A stretch of DNA of 55,813 nt. Source: Chloroflexota bacterium. Lineage in GTDB: Bacteria; Chloroflexota; Dormibacteria; Dormibacterales; Dormibacteraceae. Shown here in pieces: positions 3,472 to 54,320 of the stretch (position 1 is its first letter; each line of letters opens with the position of its first letter). Below the pieces are notes generated by a model that was not told the DNA's origin, ran no database searches, and saw only the letters and a program-made list of their open reading frames with translations. The translations under genes and the position numbers were made by a program. The DNA lies in NCBI GenBank assembly GCA_005881275.1, contig VBEF01000019.1:1-55813 (forward strand). The letters are read 5' to 3'.

Positions 3472-3508
3472 GCCGGGGTTCTGTGGAGCCCCGGCCCTTT
3501 CTTTTTTG
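3472..3508 (+). terminator. Rho-independent terminator of the basic peptide gene
   Basis: Stem GCCGGGGTTC / GAGCCCCGGC (one G-T wobble) with loop TGTG, followed by CCTTTCTTTTTT. A ten-pair GC-rich stem plus U-tract, textbook form. Confidence 0.9.
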
Positions 3509-3568
3509 GATGAGAGGAAACCCAAATGGTTTTCTTATGAGAGGAAAGCCAGATGGTTTCCTCTCATC
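3509..3568. repeat. Triple-copy inverted/direct repeat
   Basis: GATGAGAGGAAACC at 3509-3522 is exactly complementary to GGTTTCCTCTCATC at 3555-3568. A third copy (ATGAGAGGAAAGCC at 3537-3550) lies between them in direct orientation and can also pair with the right arm, so two alternative hairpins compete for the same 3' arm. It begins just past the U-tract of the terminator. Confidence 0.75.
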
Positions 3569-3669
3569 GGCCGGTCGCTGCGCGACGGGCCTGCTCTCTT
3601 TCCGGTATACGGTTCGGATTTTTTTAGTAGTCACTCGAAGCAACGCTGGGTGACATCAGAGACAAAGTC

Positions 3670-3692
3670 GCGGCCGGGATAAACCCGGCCGC
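3670..3692. repeat. Perfect 9-bp GC hairpin
   Basis: GCGGCCGGG - ATAAA - CCCGGCCGC. No following U-tract, so not a typical terminator. It lies about 45 bases upstream of the SOS promoter and may insulate it or be bound by a protein. Confidence 0.6.
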
Positions 3693-3734
3693 CAAGCAAT
3701 GCTGGTGAGGTGAACCCGACCGAGAACTGACCTC

Positions 3735-3763
3735 TTGACTCGCGAACATTCGTTCGCTAGAGT
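3735..3763 (+). promoter_or_regulatory. SOS-controlled promoter with LexA box in the spacer
   Basis: TTGACT (3735-3740) and TAGAGT (3758-3763) are separated by exactly 17 bases. The spacer is GCGAACATTCGTTCGC plus one base, a perfect CGAAC-N4-GTTCG LexA box of the Gram-positive/actinobacterial type at 3743-3756. LexA bound here would sit between the two hexamers and block RNA polymerase. It precedes imuA by about 50 bases, so the mutasome operon should be DNA-damage inducible. The binding itself is inference from the consensus. Confidence 0.85.
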
Positions 3764-3814
3764 CATAGTTGCCTCCACTTCTCCCCTGCGTCCTGCTCCG
3801 AGGCCCCTTGAAAG

Positions 3815-4564
3815 ATGCAGGCACAGAACCTTGAACTGGCGATTGATTCAATTCGAATTCGCTTCGGCAGCCAGGCGCTGACGAGGGCGGCTGAGCTGCC
3901 GCCCCCCCGACCATGGCCGAGCGGAACAGCGGTCGATCGCCTCACCGGGATCGGTGGCTTGCCGCGGGGCCGTCTCGCGCTGTTCACCGGAAACGGAACG
4001 TGCGGCAAGCTCTCGCTCGGCCTATCGCTGCTTGCCGGCGCGACGCGCGAGTTTGCTCACGCGATGGTGATCGATGGCGGCGGGTTCGATCCGTGGACGC
4101 TGACTTCCTTCTCCCCTGAGCTCGGCGCGCTGACAGTCGTCCGCGCGCCGGCTCCTGAAATCGCCGGCGAGGCGGCGGCCACGCTTGCGAGGGCCGGCGC
4201 CGGCTTCCTTCTATTGATGTGCGAGATCCCCGAGCATTGGCTCGGCCCGCTCGAGTCTGGCGCCAATCGATCCGGGACCGTGGTCGTAGGTGTGATCGAC
4301 GCACCAAGCCGAGCCCTGGCCCATGCATCGAGCTTCAGCCTCGGGTTCTCACGTAGCGATTGGATCTGGGAGCGCGGCCAGCTCGTCGGACTCCGAGCAT
4401 CGGCGCGATGCGTGAAGAACCGCGTCGCTCCGCCTCTGAGCGAGACGGAGCTGGAGATCCGCTATCCGCTATCCGCTCAACCGCTCACCGATTACACACC
4501 ACGAATCAATGAAGCACCGATCCAGGTCATTGAGATGGAGTCATGCGCGTCTGCTGTGGTCTGA
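3815..4564 (+). CDS. imuA: ImuA-like RecA-fold mutasome accessory protein
   Basis: 249 residues, first gene after the LexA box. It has the RecA/ImuA N-terminal architecture: a short helix, then LTGIGGLPRGRLALFTG leading into a P-loop-like GNGTCGKLS where the usual Thr/Ser after GK is Leu. A Walker-B-like strand AMVIDGG follows near residue 87. In other bacteria ImuA(') links RecA to ImuB and DnaE2 during translesion synthesis. The altered P-loop suggests weak or absent ATP hydrolysis, as in many ImuA proteins. The 3' end overlaps imuB by 22 bases, showing tight coupling. Sequence is divergent, so the name rests mainly on fold motifs plus gene order. Confidence 0.75.
   Translation: MQAQNLELAIDSIRIRFGSQALTRAAELPPPRPWPSGTAVDRLTGIGGLPRGRLALFTGNGTCGKLSLGLSLLAGATREFAHAMVIDGGGFDPWTLTSFSPELGALTVVRAPAPEIAGEAAATLARAGAGFLLLMCEIPEHWLGPLESGANRSGTVVVGVIDAPSRALAHASSFSLGFSRSDWIWERGQLVGLRASARCVKNRVAPPLSETELEIRYPLSAQPLTDYTPRINEAPIQVIEMESCASAVV

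Positions 4565-25295: not shown

Positions 25296-25299
<4 letters not shown>
23827..25299 (+). CDS. Secreted S33 family peptidase lipoprotein (tripeptidyl aminopeptidase type)
   Basis: 490 residues from a GTG. A signal peptide ends in the lipobox LVAC at residues 16-19, followed by a Ser/Thr/Pro linker. The alpha/beta hydrolase motifs are [10 protein letters not shown] (oxyanion loop), GFSYGTYIG (Ser nucleophile), GGTNDPATP (acid Asp in the TAP-like C-terminal domain) and NGHTS (His). This is the layout of actinobacterial tripeptidyl aminopeptidases and related exported hydrolases. The stop shares a TTAG with the convergent clpB stop, leaving no room for a separate terminator. Confidence 0.85.
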
Positions 25300-27887
<2,588 letters not shown>

Positions 27888-27949
27888 GTAAGGAGGTCTT
27901 CCACCCGCCCGCGGGGGCGAAACAGCTTTTTGTGCGTATTTTTGGCGGC

Positions 27950-28777
27950 ATGCCAGAGCTGCCAGAGCTGGAGGCACTGCGCCTCCGGATCGCCCCTCGC
28001 GTCGAGGGCAAGCTGATCACCGCGGCCACGGTCAACCCGAAAAAGGCGCACCTGCTGAGGTACCCGGTCGACAACTTTGCCCTGGAGCTGCCGGCCCGGC
28101 GCATCACGTCCCTGACCCGGCGCGGCAAGCACATGGTGTTCGCGACGGAACTCGGCGGCGGAGGCTCCCCGCGATGGCTGGTCATAAACCCGATGCTCGG
28201 GGGCAGATTCCAGATCACCGGCGCTGACACGCCCGTCCCGGCGACCGAAGTCTTCACTTTGCGCATCGAGGGCAAGCAGGAGCTGCGCTATCTCGACTTT
28301 CGGGACATGGGACGGATCTACTGGGTGTCGGACTGCTCGCGGGAGGTTCCCGCATGGGACCCGCAAGGTCCGGAGGCGGATTCGGTCGCCTCGATGGGGC
28401 TGGACATGTTCCGGAAACGGTTGCGGCGATTCCGCGACGAGCTCAAGGACCTGCTGCGCAACCAGGAATTCCTGGCCGGCATCGGCAACGCGTACTCCGA
28501 CGAGATCCTGTTCGAGGCGCGCCTTTTGCCGCTGCGTCGCCGTGCGTCGCTGAAGCCAGAGGAGGAGGAGGCGCTGTACAACGCCATCCCCCTCGTCCTG
28601 TCACGCGCCGTGGAGGCGATCCTGGCCAACCCGAACTACGAAGAGTCGAAGCAGGACCGCTCCTTCATGGCCGTGCATATGAAGGGGGGCAAGATGTGCC
28701 CACGGTGCGGGCACCGGATCAGCCAGCTCGGCTCCAACCGCGAGCCATTGAACTTCTGCCGGGGCTGCCAGCTCTAG
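27950..28777 (+). CDS. Fpg/Nei family DNA glycosylase
   Basis: 275 residues from the ATG giving MPELPELE, with Pro2 as catalytic amine after Met removal and Glu3. [10 protein letters not shown] replaces the usual HLGMTG loop, [19 protein letters not shown] is the H2TH helix, and a CPRCG-...-CRGC zinc finger ends the protein. It excises oxidised bases (8-oxoG, formamidopyrimidines or oxidised pyrimidines) and nicks the abasic site. The altered void-filling loop makes the exact substrate uncertain. Divergent from clpB; stop overlaps DUF2277 (shared CTAG). Confidence 0.9.
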
Positions 28778-37203: not shown

Positions 37204-38052
37204 CTAGACGGTGAGCTCCTGTTCCTCCGCGGCGGGAAACGAGTTCACATCGGCGCCTCCGGCGGCGCGGTGGTTGCCAAGCGCTTGCTCGATCAGCGCA
37301 TCGACGTCCGTGTCTGAATGCAGAGGGTCATGATGGAAAAACGCCAGCTCCTTGACTCCTGCCTGCTCGGCCAGCGCCAGCGACTGCTCATATGTCGAAT
37401 GACCGAAGCCGGCATGGGTCTTGTACTCCTCGGCGCTGTACTGCGCGTCGTGGACCAGCAGGTCCGAGTCGCGACACCAGTTGGCCAGGTCCTTCAGCGT
37501 TCCGTTGGAGCCGTTGGCGAACAGCGCGATCTCGTTGTCGGTCGCAAATGTGAAGCGCGAGGTGCCCTCATCGATCCGGTAGCCGAACGTCGGAATTGGA
37601 TGCATCAAAAGATGCGGCGTGATGCGCAGCGCACCGACGTCGAAGGTCTCTCCGGGGTTCCGCTCGATGAATTCCATCTCGGCCGGCATGTGGCTCAAAC
37701 GAACCGGAAAGTAGGCGGGATCGGTCTGGTCTGCGAATGCGGCCTGCAGCGACTTTGCGGAACCGGCCGGCCCGACGATGGTGAGGTGCGTCCCCGGCAC
37801 GAAGGCCGGAAGAAAAAACGGAAAACCCTGGATGTGATCGAGGTGCGTGTGGGTGATCAACAGATGGGCCTGCAGCGGCTCAGTCGGGCTGAACGTGCTC
37901 CCCAGCTCGGCGATGCCGGACCCGGAATCGATCACCAGCAGGTTGTCTTCCTTGTCCCGGACCTCGATGCAGGTCGTGTTGCCGCCGTAGCGAAGGGTGC
38001 GGCGCCCAGGGGTGGGGCGGGTGCCTCGCGTGCCCCAGAACTTGATCCTCAT
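37204..38052 (-). CDS. MBL-fold metallo-hydrolase
   Basis: 282 residues of the metallo-beta-lactamase fold: [12 protein letters not shown] at the start, [14 protein letters not shown] (HxHxDH zinc motif) near residue 67, [19 protein letters not shown] and [23 protein letters not shown]. This branch resembles cyclic-nucleotide phosphodiesterase and RNase-Z-like hydrolases. The start overlaps the stop of the upstream HD-GYP fragment (ATGA), hinting at a shared signalling-nucleotide role, which is inference only. Confidence 0.8.
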
Positions 38053-38393
38053 CTCGCGGCCATGGGTTGGTAGATCCTCTTCTCGACGAAGATTTCAAGT
38101 AGGTCCTGGTCGAGCTTTCCCTGCTTGGCCTCTTCATGGAGGATGTCCAGCGCGGTGGCCGGCGGAACCGCCCTCTTGTATGGCCGGTCCTGCGCGGTCA
38201 ACGCATCGTAGATGTCGGAGATCGTCATCATTCGAGCCTGCAGCGGGATCTGATCACCGGCCAATCCACGCGGATAACCGGATCCGTCCAGCTTTTCGTG
38301 ATGACCGTACGCGATCTCTGGAATGCCTTTCATCACGGGTGTCCACGGGATCTTGGTGAGGAAGTGGAAGCTGTGCGTGACGTGTGACTCCAT
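38049..38393 (-). CDS. HD-GYP phosphodiesterase, C-terminal half (split gene)
   Basis: 114 residues beginning with the ATG directly after the TAG of the upstream frame and in the same frame. It contains [16 protein letters not shown], then the HD-GYP signature [19 protein letters not shown] and [18 protein letters not shown]. These supply the second part of the metal site; the first part (HDFGKVGV) is in the preceding ORF. AGGAG nine bases before the ATG could start this half independently. The stop is coupled to the MBL gene. Either a nonsense-interrupted gene, a readthrough product or a genuine two-chain enzyme. Confidence 0.75.
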
Positions 38394-39893
38394 CTAGAGA
38401 CGCTCCTGCGGGTCGAGAGTGCCCTTGCGGATGCTCAGGAAACGAAACTCTTGCGGCTCGAGCATCGGATGCGGATTGCCACTGATGTCGTAATAGGTTT
38501 GCTGCGAGAGGAATTCGAGCATCGACGCCTTGTCTTCGGGCATAACCGTCGGCTCGTTCGCCGCGGCGATGCTGTTCACCCATTCGTTGAGCTGGGCCAG
38601 CTCCGCTGTCAGGCGGCGATCGATCTCGTCGATGGTGGACCCGTTGCGATCGGCCTTCATCGCTTCGAGCTTCTCCGTCGCGTACTTGACCTGAACTGAC
38701 CGCTCGATGAACTCAAAACGGGCCCGGATGACCTCGAGCTGGCCCGGGACCAGCTTTTTGGCCTTGATGAGGATGTGTTCGCGCACGCCGACCTTGCCGA
38801 AGTCGTGCAAGAGACATGCATACCGAAGCTCCTTGAGCTGGTCCTCACCGAGATGGACGTTGCGATAGGTCCCTGTCGCGATCTCGTTGATGGCGCGAGC
38901 CAACCTGGTGGTCAGACCCTCCACGCGACCCGAGTGACCGGCGGTGCTCGGGTCTCTCTGCTCGATCGCGGTCACGCTCGCCTGGACGAAACCGTCGAAC
39001 AGGGCCTGGATCGAATCGAGCAAGCTCTTGTTGTCCAGCGCGACCGCAGCCTGGCTGGCGATCGATTCGATCATCTCGACGTCATCGGGCTGGAAGCTGA
39101 CCACCTCGGTCCCGACGTTGTCGATCGTCAACTTGGTCTCATATCGCTTCTTGGCGTTGATCAGCTGGACTGCACCCACGACATCGTTGTGGTAGTCGCG
39201 CATAGGGACCGTGAGCATCGACTTGGTCCGGTAGCCGAACTGGGCGTCGAAGCTCTTGCCGCCGACGGGCTTGCCCGGCGGCGGGTTGTAGGCATCGTCG
39301 TAAATCTGGCTCTTGCCTACCGACACCGTGTAACCCACAACCGACTTCTCGTTCACCGGGACCTTGAATGCCTGATAGGTGCTCTTGTCGAGCGAATGGT
39401 TCTGGCTCGACGCCAGGAACAGCTTTGGGCCGCTGTCCTCATCCATCTTCAGCCACAGGCTGGCGCCGTCCGCGTGCGTCAGCTGGCGCATCGTCGTGAG
39501 GATGAACGACTGCAGGCGTTCTATGTCCTTCTCGGCAGAAAGGGCAACGCCGATCCGGTTCAGCTCGCGAAACTGGCGGTGGCGGCGATGCGCTTCGGCC
39601 TCCAGCTGCGTCATCTGCTGCTTGAGGACAACGTTTTCCATCCCGATACGGATGAGCTCGCGCACGGCCGACGGGGACGCGTCGGCAGGCAACTCGATCG
39701 CCATCAGATCAAGCTGCTCTGGCGCCTTCTGGCCGGGGGCTAGGAGGACGAGCGCCGGGCGTTCGATCTGCTCCATGCCTGGCAGGTCCTGTACGTCCAG
39801 GCCCGTCGCCGCCAGGCTGGGCAGCCGGACTGCGTCGAGCACGTAAAGGTGGAATTTCGGCGCCGTCTTCATAGACGGGCTACGTTCTAGCAC
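38394..39893 (-). CDS. GAF + HD-GYP phosphodiesterase, N-terminal part (split gene)
   Basis: 499 residues from a GTG at 39893, or 492 from ATG 39872, which avoids overlapping coaX. Residues 1-90 resemble a degenerate receiver-like domain, ~110-292 is a GAF sensor (DGASLWLKM, KSMLTVPMRDYHNDVVGAVQLINAK), and from ~310 the HD-GYP domain begins (GHSGRVEGLT, then HDFGKVGVREHIL at 363-375). An insertion of ~80 residues rich in charged helices follows. The frame then ends in TAG just before the second half of the domain. HD-GYP proteins hydrolyse cyclic di-GMP or related dinucleotides. Confidence 0.8.
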   Translation of the reverse strand: MLERSPSMKTAPKFHLYVLDAVRLPSLAATGLDVQDLPGMEQIERPALVLLAPGQKAPEQLDLMAIELPADASPSAVRELIRIGMENVVLKQQMTQLEAEAHRRHRQFRELNRIGVALSAEKDIERLQSFILTTMRQLTHADGASLWLKMDEDSGPKLFLASSQNHSLDKSTYQAFKVPVNEKSVVGYTVSVGKSQIYDDAYNPPPGKPVGGKSFDAQFGYRTKSMLTVPMRDYHNDVVGAVQLINAKKRYETKLTIDNVGTEVVSFQPDDVEMIESIASQAAVALDNKSLLDSIQALFDGFVQASVTAIEQRDPSTAGHSGRVEGLTTRLARAINEIATGTYRNVHLGEDQLKELRYACLLHDFGKVGVREHILIKAKKLVPGQLEVIRARFEFIERSVQVKYATEKLEAMKADRNGSTIDEIDRRLTAELAQLNEWVNSIAAANEPTVMPEDKASMLEFLSQQTYYDISGNPHPMLEPQEFRFLSIRKGTLDPQERL

Positions 39894-43309: not shown

Positions 43310-43706
43310 CGGCGAGCAGGTTCTTCAAAGCCCGAACCGCCCCGCGCTGGCGCAGCACGGCGATGATCGTGTCGTCACCCGCGACGGTGCCGGCGATGCC
43401 CGGGAGCGCGGCCTCGTCGATGCGGCGCGCGACCAGGTTGGCGGTCCCCGGCGGCGTCCTGATCACCGCCATGGGTTCCACCACCTCGACCGAGAGGACG
43501 AGCTCGCGGACCAGGCCGGCCGAGCTGCGGTAGCCGGCGCCGGATCGGACCAGGCCGAGCTCCTGAATGTCACGCGAGATCGTCGCCTGGGTCGTCCGCA
43601 TGCCGCGTTTGGCCAGAGCCTCCGCGATTTCCTGCTGCGTGTGCACCGAACCGCGATTGACGAGGTTGAGGATCGCGCTGTGACGTTCTGCCTTCGTTGC
43701 GGTCAT
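43299..43706 (-). CDS. argR: Arginine repressor ArgR
   Basis: 135 residues from ATG 43706 (coupled to argD by ATGA). The N-terminal winged helix has VHTQQEIAEALAKRGMRTTQATISRDIQELGL, the classic ArgR DNA-binding signature. The C-terminal oligomerisation/arginine-binding part contains GTANLVARRIDEAALPGIAGTVAGDDTIIAV. It should bind the ARG-box-like palindrome before argC, so the operon encodes its own repressor. Confidence 0.95.
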   Translation of the reverse strand: MTATKAERHSAILNLVNRGSVHTQQEIAEALAKRGMRTTQATISRDIQELGLVRSGAGYRSSAGLVRELVLSVEVVEPMAVIRTPPGTANLVARRIDEAALPGIAGTVAGDDTIIAVLRQRGAVRALKNLLADAG

Positions 43707-44875
43707 CCGGCGACCTTGCGCATGACGGATTGGGCGCGGTCGATCTCGTTCGCGCCGATGATCAGGGGCGGGACCAGCCGGACCGAGTGATCGTCGACCG
43801 CGTTGACGATCAGCCCCGCTTCCAGACACGCATTCTGAAACGGTTTCGCCTTCGGTTCTTCGAACTCGAAGGCCTGCATCAGGCCGACGCCGCGCACGTC
43901 CTTGGCGCCAAGGTCCCCAAGGGTCGATCGAAGAAGGTCGCCCATCTCGGCCGCGTGGCCGACCAGCCCATCGCGTTCGATCACGTGCAGCACGGCCGTG
44001 GCCGCGGCGCAAGCGAGCGGATTCCCACCAAAGGTCGAGCCGTGGTCGCCCGGCTCGAAGATGTCCGCGCGCGGACTGGCCAGACAGGCCCCGATGGGAA
44101 GGCCGCCGCCCAGGCCCTTCGCCAGGGTCATGACGTCGGGCGCGATGCTCGCGTGCTGGTACGCGAACCACCTGCCGGTGCGACCCAGCCCGGTCTGAAC
44201 CTCGTCGAGGATGAGCAGCAGGTTTTTCCTGTCGCACCATACGCGGACGCGCTCGAGGTAGCCGGCAGCGGCGGGAATGACGCCGATCTCGCCCATCACC
44301 GGCTCGAGCATCACGGCGACCGTCTTTTCCGTGGTCGCCGCTTCGATCGCCTCCGCGTCGTTGTAGGCCACGTGCACGAAACCGTCGGGCAGCGGCTGGA
44401 ACGGGTCCGAGTACTTGTGCTGCCCGCCGGCCGTAACAGTCGCGAGCGTGCGGCCGTGGAAGGAGCCTGTCGTGGTGATGATCTCGAACGCCCCGTCGCG
44501 GTTGCGGGTGCCCCACTTGCGGGCGAGCTTGATCGCGGCCTCGTTTGCCTCCGCGCCGGAATTACAGAAGAAGACGCGCGAGGGGAAGGAAAGATCGACC
44601 AGGCGCCGCGCAAGCTCGACCTGGGGTTGGGTGAAGTAGAGGTTCGAGGTGTGAATCAGCTCGGCCGACTGCTTGGTGACGGCCGCCACGACTTCTGGAT
44701 GCGCGTGGCCGAGGAGATTGACGGCGATGCCAGCCACCAGGTCGAGGTACTCACGGCCCGCGTCGTCGTACAGCAGGCAGCCGCGCCCGCGGACGAAGGT
44801 GACGGGCAGGCGGCGGCCTGTCTGCATCAGGTAGCGGTCGGCCAGCTCGGGGATGCTCTTGGTCACAGAGCTCAC
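43703..44875 (-). CDS. argD: Acetylornithine aminotransferase
   Basis: 390 residues from the GTG at 44875, overlapping the argB stop (GTGA). Class III PLP aminotransferase: FFCNSGAEANEAAIKLAR, GSFHGRT, LILDEVQTGLGRTG, and the PLP Lys in TLAKGLGGGLPIGA. Converts N-acetylglutamate semialdehyde to N-acetylornithine, and often serves in lysine synthesis too. Confidence 0.95.
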   Translation of the reverse strand: MSSVTKSIPELADRYLMQTGRRLPVTFVRGRGCLLYDDAGREYLDLVAGIAVNLLGHAHPEVVAAVTKQSAELIHTSNLYFTQPQVELARRLVDLSFPSRVFFCNSGAEANEAAIKLARKWGTRNRDGAFEIITTTGSFHGRTLATVTAGGQHKYSDPFQPLPDGFVHVAYNDAEAIEAATTEKTVAVMLEPVMGEIGVIPAAAGYLERVRVWCDRKNLLLILDEVQTGLGRTGRWFAYQHASIAPDVMTLAKGLGGGLPIGACLASPRADIFEPGDHGSTFGGNPLACAAATAVLHVIERDGLVGHAAEMGDLLRSTLGDLGAKDVRGVGLMQAFEFEEPKAKPFQNACLEAGLIVNAVDDHSVRLVPPLIIGANEIDRAQSVMRKVAG

Positions 44876-45708
44876 GGCGTGACCATCGTTCCGATGCCAG
44901 ACTCGGTGAACAGCTCCAGGAGCAGGGCGTGCTTGGTCCGGCCGTCGACGATGTGAGCGAGCGGCACGCCGTCCAGTGCGCGCAGGCAGGCCTCCAGCTT
45001 CGGAATCATGCCCCCGGTGACCTCGCCCTTGTCGATGCGCTGACGCGCGTCCTCCTTGGACAGAACGGCGACGACTTGCCCGTCGACGCCCTGAACGCCG
45101 GGCACGTCGGTCAGCAAGATGACCTTCGCGGCCTTGAGAGCGACCGCGATCTCGGCCGCCACCGTGTCGGCATTGATGTTGTAGGCATGACCGTCGTAGC
45201 CCAGCCCGATCGAGGCAATGACCGGGATGTACCCGCGAGTGAGCAGCGCGGTGATCGGCTCCTTGTTGACCTGCGTCACCTTGCCGACGAATCCCATCGC
45301 CTCGTCGAGCGGCTCCGCGATGATCGTTGGGCCGTCTTCCCCGCTCATGCCCACCGCCTGTCCACCCAGCCGGTGGATCGCAGCGACGAGGTCGGGGCTG
45401 ACCTTGCCCGTCAGCACCATCTTCACGACCTCCATCGTCTTCTCGTCCGTGATGCGCAGCCCGTTCTTGAACTCGGGCTTGAGCCCGAGGCGTTCGCTCA
45501 TCGCGCTGATCTCGGGACCGCCGCCATGCACCAGGACCGGCTGCATGCCGACGTAGCGCAGCAGGACGACGTCGAGCAGAGTTTCGTCGCGCGCGTGGTC
45601 GATCGCGTTCCCGCCGACCTTGATCACGACGATCTGGCCATGAAATCGCTTGATGTAAGGCAGCGCCTCGACCAGGACCTTGGCGCGCTCTTCGACGGTG
45701 AGCGTCAT
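44872..45708 (-). CDS. argB: Acetylglutamate kinase
   Basis: 278 residues from ATG 45708, which overlaps the argJ TGA (ATGA). IVVIKVGGNAI is the amino-acid-kinase Lys-Gly-Gly motif, VLVHGGGPEIS the substrate loop, YNINADTVAAEIA the nucleotide site and GGMIPKLEACLRAL the C-terminal block. Phosphorylates N-acetylglutamate, usually the feedback-controlled step. Confidence 0.96.
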   Translation of the reverse strand: MTLTVEERAKVLVEALPYIKRFHGQIVVIKVGGNAIDHARDETLLDVVLLRYVGMQPVLVHGGGPEISAMSERLGLKPEFKNGLRITDEKTMEVVKMVLTGKVSPDLVAAIHRLGGQAVGMSGEDGPTIIAEPLDEAMGFVGKVTQVNKEPITALLTRGYIPVIASIGLGYDGHAYNINADTVAAEIAVALKAAKVILLTDVPGVQGVDGQVVAVLSKEDARQRIDKGEVTGGMIPKLEACLRALDGVPLAHIVDGRTKHALLLELFTESGIGTMVTP

Positions 45709-46916
45709 GTCGTGTAGTCGGCGTTGATTCGCACGTACTCCTCCGATAGATCGCAGCCCCACGCCTCGGCGGCCCCATCCCCCAGGCCGAGCCTGGCCAC
45801 GATCTCAATTTCTGGCTGCTCGAAAGCCCGCCGGACACCCGACAGGTCCACGTCGACACCGGCACCGCGCTCGAAGACGACGAGGCCGCCGACGGTCAGA
45901 TGAAGCGTGTCAAGGGCGAGCTCCGCGCCACTGTAGCCCAGCGCGCACACGATCCGGCCCCAGTTCGGATCGCCGCCATGCACGGCGGTCTTGACCAGAC
46001 TCGACGACGCGACCGCACGGGCGGCAGTCCGGGCATCCTTATCCGACGCCGCGGTCAGCACCTTGACCGTGATCAACTTCGTCGCACCCTCGCCGTCCCG
46101 CGCGATCGCCCGCGAAAGCTCCCTCGCCACCTGGACGAGGCCCGCCTGAAGCTGCTCGGCTTGCGAGGTGCCGGCCCGGATCGGTTCGTTGCCCGCGGCG
46201 CCATTGGCAAGGATCAGGAAGCTGTCGTTGGTCGAGCTGTCGCCGTCGATTGTGACCTGGTTGAAGCTTCGGTCGGCGACCGACCGGACAAGCCTGGCGA
46301 TCAGACCGGGCTCCACCGCCGCGTCGGTGGTGACGTAAGCCAACAGGGTCGCCATGTTCGGGTGGATCATGCCCGAGCCCTTGCTCATCCCTCCGATGCG
46401 CACGGTCGTGCCGGCGATTTCGAGCTCTGTTTGCGCCGTTTTCGGCTGCGTGTCGGTTGTCATGATCGCCCGCGCCGCCGCAGCACCCGCATCTGGGCTC
46501 AGCTGGCTGCACGCTTCGGTGATGCCGGACTTGATCGCGTCCATCGGCAGGTAGCGGCCGATCACGCCTGTGGAGCTCACCAGCACCTGATCAGGGTCGA
46601 GGTCGAGCCGGTCGGCGGACAGCTTCGCCATGAGGAGGGCGTCGCGAAAACCCTGCGCTCCAGTGCACGCGTTTGCGTTGCCCGAGTTGATCGTCAGCGC
46701 TTGCACACGGTTGCGCTGCAGGTGAAGCTGGTCGATCACGACCGAAGCGGACTTCACTTTGTTCGTCGTGAATACGCCGCCGGTGTCGCACGGAGACGCG
46801 GAGTGGATCACGCAAAGGTCGTCCCTCTGGTCGCCTGGGATGGCAGACGCCCCGGTCGTGAACGCCTTGATGCCACACGCCGCCGTGCCAGCCCGAAATC
46901 CTCGGGCGTAGGTCAC
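45705..46916 (-). CDS. argJ: Glutamate N-acetyltransferase / amino-acid acetyltransferase
   Basis: 403 residues from GTG 46916, overlapping the argC stop (GTGA). NSGNANACTG, STGVIGRYLPMD and the self-cleavage site GEGATKLITV (between Ala and Thr) identify ArgJ. It recycles the acetyl group from acetylornithine to glutamate; bifunctional forms also use acetyl-CoA. No argA or argE is seen here, in line with the cyclic pathway. Confidence 0.95.
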   Translation of the reverse strand: MTYARGFRAGTAACGIKAFTTGASAIPGDQRDDLCVIHSASPCDTGGVFTTNKVKSASVVIDQLHLQRNRVQALTINSGNANACTGAQGFRDALLMAKLSADRLDLDPDQVLVSSTGVIGRYLPMDAIKSGITEACSQLSPDAGAAAARAIMTTDTQPKTAQTELEIAGTTVRIGGMSKGSGMIHPNMATLLAYVTTDAAVEPGLIARLVRSVADRSFNQVTIDGDSSTNDSFLILANGAAGNEPIRAGTSQAEQLQAGLVQVARELSRAIARDGEGATKLITVKVLTAASDKDARTAARAVASSSLVKTAVHGGDPNWGRIVCALGYSGAELALDTLHLTVGGLVVFERGAGVDVDLSGVRRAFEQPEIEIVARLGLGDGAAEAWGCDLSEEYVRINADYTT

Positions 46917-53406: not shown

Positions 53407-54276
53407 TCAGCTTTCGTCTTCATCCTCGTCCTCACCGTCGGCATCTGCCTCCTCCGAAAAGTCGACGGTCTCGCCCTCGTCCTCGACGGCATGCATGCCT
53501 TCTTCCATATCGTCGCTGGCCGGGGCTTCGGACAGGGTCGTTTCGCCTTCCTCGTCCTCGGCGAAGGTCTCCACGTCTCTCGCGAGGAGGCTTCCCTTGG
53601 TGTACGGCCGGAACTCCACCTCTCGCTTGCGCCGCATAGGGAAGCTTGGCTTGCCGGCGAAGCGCGGGTCCTGGTAGGTCTCCCGGACGATCAGCTTGAC
53701 AGTGTTGCCGTCGCAAGAGGTTATGCCTGACTGGTAACGATTTCCGCCGCGCATGAACTTGATCAGCCGGCGGGCGAGCTTGGCTTCGAGCTGACCGAGT
53801 CGCACTCCGCGGGACGTCTCGATCCCAATGGCGTCACCTTCGATCTTCAGCTCGGCGACGTCGCCGGCCGCGACCTTGGAGCAGATGTCCACGTTGGGCG
53901 GGGAATCGACCGTCGTGATCACCGTCTTGCCCATCTCCTCGACGAAGAGGTTGAGGTCGACCCTGGTCCCGCCGACCTTGAGCCCCTCCTTCTGGTGCAG
54001 CAGGGCGTTGATCCGGGCGGCGTTTTTCTTGGCGATGTTGTTCATCGGGTTGAGCTTCAGCGCCGCCTCGTACGAAGCCTTCGCCTCTTTCAGCTTGCCC
54101 AGCTCGGACAGGGCCTTGCCAAGGCGATTCTGAGATTCCTCGTCAGCTCCGAAGTTCTCGATGATGAATCGGTTCAGCTTGGCGGCCTCGTCCCACTTAC
54201 CCGCGATGGCGAGCTGCACGGCGTCCTCGGCGTACTGCGAGCGGGGCTTGAGGTGTTCGCTGGTGTCGGCTTTCAA
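53407..54276 (-). CDS. TPR protein with basic core and acidic tail
   Basis: 289 residues from a TTG preceded by AGGAG at nine bases. Residues ~12-95 form two to three TPR helices (WDEAAKLNRFIIENFG, ESQNRLGKALSELGKLKEAKASYEAALKLNP). A beta-rich middle (~105-225; VDICSKVAAGDVAELKIEG, LIKFMRGGNRYQSGITSCDGN) is of unknown type, and the last ~50 residues are almost wholly Asp/Glu. The acidic tail could mimic DNA or RNA, or bind basic proteins. No name assigned. First gene of the long minus-strand array. Confidence 0.7.
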   Translation of the reverse strand: MKADTSEHLKPRSQYAEDAVQLAIAGKWDEAAKLNRFIIENFGADEESQNRLGKALSELGKLKEAKASYEAALKLNPMNNIAKKNAARINALLHQKEGLKVGGTRVDLNLFVEEMGKTVITTVDSPPNVDICSKVAAGDVAELKIEGDAIGIETSRGVRLGQLEAKLARRLIKFMRGGNRYQSGITSCDGNTVKLIVRETYQDPRFAGKPSFPMRRKREVEFRPYTKGSLLARDVETFAEDEEGETTLSEAPASDDMEEGMHAVEDEGETVDFSEEADADGEDEDEDES

Positions 54277-54320
54277 AGGGGCGCGCTCCTATGGAGTGGC
54301 TGAAGTTGGAGGGAATGCTG

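Follow-up and report, generated by a model that had tools for sequence, protein, structure and literature searches.

The window examined here is a stretch of 55,813 nt (positions 1 to 55,813 of contig VBEF01000019.1, with coordinates counted from its first letter) and belongs to the 127-contig draft genome of a Chloroflexota bacterium (GCA_005881275.1; 2.94 Mb, 86.44% complete), for whose close relatives the sample names suggest a soil habitat. Four minus-strand genes follow one another in this window: one that we take to be coaX-like (type III pantothenate kinase), a GAF/HD-GYP gene, an MBL-fold gene, and one that is presumably lysS-like (Table 1). The GAF/HD-GYP frame is interrupted by a TAG (38396-38394), and the frame of the C-terminal piece (C piece) continues directly from it at ATG 38393, as the original prediction had described without stating the strand, which is the minus strand. 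The translations place HDFGKVGV in the upstream open reading frame (ORF) and ESHV, together with a further stretch of 11 residues, in the downstream one; the predicted AGGAG nine bases ahead of ATG 38393 and the predicted ATGA junction between the C piece and the MBL gene (38049-38393 overlapping 37204-38052) are likewise present. Two start codons are candidates for the interrupted gene, GTG 39893, which overlaps the end of the upstream gene, and ATG 39872; the latter is preferred because in three relatives (L004, L028 and L029), which have one base fewer, the GTG falls outside the reading frame of the HD-GYP gene.

Table 1. Features of the interrupted GAF/HD-GYP locus (positions in the window).
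Feature	Position	Strand	Remarks
coaX-like ORF, 260 aa	39880-40662	-	Directly upstream; its own stop is TAG
GAF/HD-GYP N piece: GAF domain, HDFGK motif	38394-39872	-	492 aa from ATG 39872
N piece, alternative start GTG 39893	38394-39893	-	499 aa
In-frame TAG	38394-38396	-	Glu codon in 29 of 29 distinct orthologues
AGGAG	38403-38407	-	9 nt before the ATG; encodes part of a conserved P-Q-E-R stretch
C piece: ESH, HHE, GSGYP, alpha10-type Asp	38049-38393	-	114 aa; starts with ATG right after the TAG
MBL-fold gene, Pfam Lactamase_B_2	37204-38052	-	Start overlaps the C-piece stop as ATGA

Pfam assigns the GAF domain and the front of an HD domain to the N-terminal piece (N piece), and positions 79-170 of the 170-position HD_5 profile to the C piece; in the uninterrupted orthologue L004, GAF, HD and HD_5 lie in one protein of 607 aa. 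Orthologues of this type in the family share the domains and gene order of the interrupted gene and likewise overlap the MBL gene by ATGA, GTGA or TTGA, but L004 differs in having one open frame without the stop. For comparison with a characterized enzyme, L004 was aligned to the chain of PmGH, a cyclic-di-GMP phosphodiesterase (PDB 4mcw). According to the part of the PmGH report drawn on here (PMC4159591), its metal ligands are E185, H189, H221, D222, H250 (on helix alpha8), H276, H277 and D305; apart from E185 and D305, alanine substitution of any ligand essentially abolished activity, and both groups of the HD-GYP family share seven of the eight, E185 being the exception. The alignment places the equivalents of H189, H221, D222 and K225 in the N piece and those of H250, H276, H277 and D305, plus the GYP motif, in the C piece. 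The locus therefore resembles PmGH in its order of GAF then HD-GYP and in matching seven ligands, K225 and the GYP motif, but PmGH is a single chain, whereas here the stop parts three ligands from four; the N piece also has a serine at the position of E185. PmGH has an isoleucine at the junction position where the orthologues have a glutamate, so this glutamate is not a family-wide feature of HD-GYP proteins. Relative to PmGH, approximately 100 additional residues separate the HDFGK...KKL stretch from the H250 region (window 38394-38800), an extension common to the aligned orthologues.

Over both pieces together the HD motif, the paired histidines, the GYP motif and all seven shared metal-ligand positions are present, but no single polypeptide holds them all, as the TAG leaves three ligands in the first ORF and four in the second. 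This agrees with the prediction that both halves are needed for a site, since neither piece alone has the full ligand set. The further claim that the interruption falls exactly between the metal-binding halves holds for the order of the ligands, three before and four after, but not in the sense of a domain boundary, as the TAG stands only four codons ahead of the H250 equivalent. A structure model of uninterrupted L004 from a 23-row alignment was too poor for fold comparison (mean pLDDT 56.6, pTM 0.37, residues 480-511 below 50); in this low-confidence model (local pLDDT below 50) a helix at residues 488-507 holds the H250-equivalent histidine and begins before the cut, which makes a domain boundary at this point improbable.

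Orthologous loci were collected in a first genome-contig scan (24 loci) and a second search (29 more, L028-L056), and these 53 loci comprise 29 distinct sequences. Conservation of the TAG in relatives, which the original prediction had named as a check, was not found: none of the 29 distinct orthologues carries it, and all 29 have glutamate at this position. The first-scan loci have a Glu codon at the junction in 24 of 24 cases (that of L024 prints one codon later, its match ending one residue earlier), and the glutamate is invariant in the 23 of 23 uninterrupted proteins aligned. The raw codon tally over 56 loci is 52 GAG, 2 TTC, 1 AAG and 1 TAG, the last being the window itself; L003 (GAG) and L002 (AAG) are other HD genes of the window's own genome, and the TTC rows, L021 and L039, are misplaced by a downstream 35-base deletion and have glutamate at the true position, as read in L021. 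A search with the C piece in 42 family genomes gave a match at E 1e-30 or better in 34, the window's own included. In 32 of the 33 other genomes the C piece lies within one open frame of 361-873 aa, where the 361-aa frame begins near a contig end and 4 of the 33 genomes (G025, G028, G034 and G038) were judged on frame length alone, with no locus sequence read; the 33rd is G006, which has the deletion. The stop-start arrangement is thus private to this genome among the 34 family genomes with a C piece. The G006 orthologue (G006:C7, L021 / L039) is a separate break, in which the 35-base deletion just past the junction removes the paired-histidine motif and shifts the frame. A second full-length copy able to compensate was not found in the 86% complete genome, where the two further matches, 33% and 32% identical along only part of the query, are other HD genes; a close-match search with the 1845-base stretch gave no plasmid copy.

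Both pieces retain the signature of constraint. Against the nearest relative, with which they share 87% (N piece) and 89% (C piece) protein identity, the N piece (494 codons) has a dN/dS of 0.107 and the C piece (114 codons) one of 0.091; values from 29 comparisons span 0.107-0.533 and 0.042-0.181, respectively. The dS to this relative is 0.65 (N) and 0.73 (C), and therefore the branch carrying the change is long and the age of the change poorly bounded. Among 14 congeners, comprising the window and 13 others with L039 excluded for its deletion, the N piece carries 5 changes private to the window at otherwise invariant columns (0-10 in each of the others) and the C piece none (0-2 in each of the others). 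Neither piece shows the lost constraint or the further lesions of a decaying pseudogene, although a young pseudogene would look alike. Uninterrupted relatives combined with decay of either half in this strain had been named by the original prediction as evidence that would count against it; the relatives are uninterrupted at this point, but dN/dS and private-change counts give no decay. This lack of decay points to a change at the recent end of the branch, or else to an error in the sequence.

The surroundings of the stop have the geometry associated with termination-reinitiation, with the start 0 nt from the stop and AGGAG at 9 nt. Among 18 in-frame ATG codons after the start of the gene, only ATG 38393 is preceded by AGGAG at 4-11 nt, while two others have AGGA. 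Of the 187 single-base changes that could create a stop in the gene, only the observed one puts it immediately ahead of an in-frame start codon that has a Shine-Dalgarno (SD) motif of 4-5 nt 4-11 nt upstream, a figure that is post hoc since the finding was chosen for these features; with starts as far as 12 nt downstream allowed, 7 of the 187 qualify. The placement of the stop is slightly easier to reconcile with a genuine, tolerated change than with a chance error. Conservation of the AGGAG, also proposed as a check, was found only in part: the motif occurs at the same place in 19 of 29 distinct relatives, but there as ordinary coding sequence and without the stop, and the ATG occurs likewise in 26 of 29 (including L039, as shown by its copy L021). 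Because both are ordinary coding sequence in most relatives, the AGGAG and ATG did not evolve for restart.

Termination-reinitiation pairs described in the consulted portions of two studies (PMC6728339; PMC10666635) similarly have stop and start within a few nt and an SD-like motif inside the upstream frame, but they are mostly 4 or 1 nt overlaps between separate proteins, whereas the junction in the window has a 0 nt distance in the same frame, lies inside one ancestral domain and is not conserved. As far as the same portions report, moving the stop to +2 nt in E. coli lowered reinitiation by 5, 20 and 70% in three gene pairs (PMC10666635), and the earlier study found 13 of 14 pairs to be strictly coupled (PMC6728339). 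No AGGAG- or GGAG-like motif stands within 25 nt upstream of the MBL start codon, and the MBL gene probably relies on ribosomes finishing the C piece; a restart at ATG 38393 would for this reason also spare the MBL gene. In relatives in which the end of the C piece was read intact, the HD-GYP stop and the MBL start overlap as ATGA, GTGA or TTGA. The MBL-fold gene itself resembles models of RNase Z and of cyclic-nucleotide phosphodiesterases, but falls far short of every curated NCBIfam cut-off.

Of the three options raised by the original prediction, a recent nonsense mutation is best supported, given a private stop at a residue invariant in all 23 aligned orthologues and two pieces that have not decayed. 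From the sequence comparisons we consider it moderately probable that the stop is a real, recent and lineage-specific nonsense mutation in a single-chain GAF/HD-GYP gene, with probable restart. A gene uninterrupted at this point in all orthologues examined would have gained a private nonsense codon in one lineage, recently enough for both pieces to remain undecayed. To judge from the geometry, ribosomes ending at the TAG may restart at the adjoining ATG, so that the 114-aa C-terminal chain would be produced and translation of the MBL gene, coupled through ATGA, would continue. By itself the N-terminal chain is predicted to be inactive unless paired with the C-terminal chain, because four of the seven conserved metal ligands are missing from it. 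The most likely outcome would be a phosphodiesterase that is damaged or weakened and a downstream gene that is spared; if the stop is real, the inherited AGGAG-ATG probably lets ribosomes restart and so protects the coupled MBL gene.

The main rival to a real mutation is that the TAG arose as a wrong base in the draft assembly, or as a minority variant chosen by the consensus, and that the gene of the organism is uninterrupted; we regard this as possible but less probable. The TAG is known from one draft assembly and one genome of its species, a 127-contig, 86% complete draft, and is a singleton among the 34 family genomes with the C piece; normal constraint on both pieces and lack of decay would be expected from an error too, and another draft genome of the genus (G006, with its 35-base deletion) also carries a broken copy, whether real or artefact. 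Against an error stands the position of the stop directly before the one AGGAG-ATG of the gene, at 1 in 187 for a random change (post hoc), and, by comparison with the syntenic contig of a relative, G013, the contig is not rich in errors. Of 47 conserved ORFs of the G013 contig, 13 drew a flag because their window counterparts contain stops or shift frame, and among the 11 of 13 inspected the HD-GYP gene alone has at least 100 aa at an identity of at least 0.8 to either side of its stop (494 aa at 0.81 and 114 aa at 0.85). The remaining flags inspected resemble stop-to-stop leaders, frames antisense to other ORFs, and short or weak matches, apart from one at window 3722-4107, where a stop has 16 aa at 0.75 identity on one side and 84 aa at 0.69 on the other, with another frame following.

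Several features of these comparisons may be recorded in their own right. A 485-aa ORF of G013 matches window 3500-4107 over its first 129 residues only, with one stop and one frame change, and approximately 1 kb of the G013 contig is without counterpart between window 3500 and 3713. A comparison with a second relative, G004, gave 8 flags among 28 ORFs, the HD-GYP gene included, of which 6 were inspected; the flag at window 54005-54295, where a stop is flanked by 42 aa at 0.86 identity and by 54 aa at 0.76, runs antisense to a minus-strand ORF that is itself conserved. When G013 was searched for breaks in turn, 8 flags arose among 46 ORFs, of which 7 were inspected; in the G013 counterpart of window 43706-45895, stops are surrounded by sequence of 0.64-0.78 identity. 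Seeming breaks of frame at window 27087-28774 were dropped, as a long minus-strand ORF (25296-27977), which we take to be ClpB-like, runs antisense to them.

A maintained two-chain HD-GYP phosphodiesterase, in which stop-start coupling would supply the chains in fixed proportion and the site would be shared between them, appears improbable on the evidence of the sequence. The AGGAG and ATG are suitably spaced right at the stop, the seven shared ligand positions are all retained across both pieces, dN/dS is low in each of them, and termination-reinitiation pairs often encode subunits of one complex, as stated in the portion of PMC10666635 consulted. The split, however, is conserved in no relative examined, and the cut falls within a helix of the low-confidence model, four codons before a metal-ligand histidine. 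The one feature that speaks for this option is the SD-ATG geometry, which is mostly inherited coding sequence, and since the AGGAG and ATG are inherited as such in most relatives, nothing shows selection for the split. Slightly less probable again is a gene fission caught at birth, in which one base change would have produced a co-translated two-chain phosphodiesterase, with the inherited AGGAG-Met serving as ribosome-binding site and start and the active site shared between the chains. The best literature matches on split or nonsense HD-GYP genes and on fission with reinitiation, as far as their consulted text goes, included no split HD-GYP of comparable kind, and a literature search for Dormibacterota and cyclic di-GMP gave nothing. 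Readthrough or recoding of the UAG to give the full-length protein, the remaining option of the original prediction, is very improbable even though the frame is open and the protein conserved on either side of the TAG, as TAG is an ordinary terminator here, ending 14 of 43 conserved window ORFs including the N piece (13 of 42 others, the upstream gene among them), none of the 41 tRNA matches read by ARAGORN in the 86% complete genome has the anticodon CTA (CUA), which leaves no suppressor tRNA among them, and the 120-nt junction RNA is no better folded than its shuffles (z 1.27, with 184 of 200 shuffles at least as stable).

HD-GYP enzymes are not redefined by either outcome, a real stop or an error, and a surprise would arise only if an active two-chain enzyme were proven. 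If the TAG is an error, it would illustrate again that reads should be consulted before a mechanism is built on a stop seen in only one draft genome. If the nonsense mutation is real, this locus would be a small natural case in which an in-frame SD-like motif and Met codon soften the effect of a nonsense mutation and protect a coupled downstream gene.
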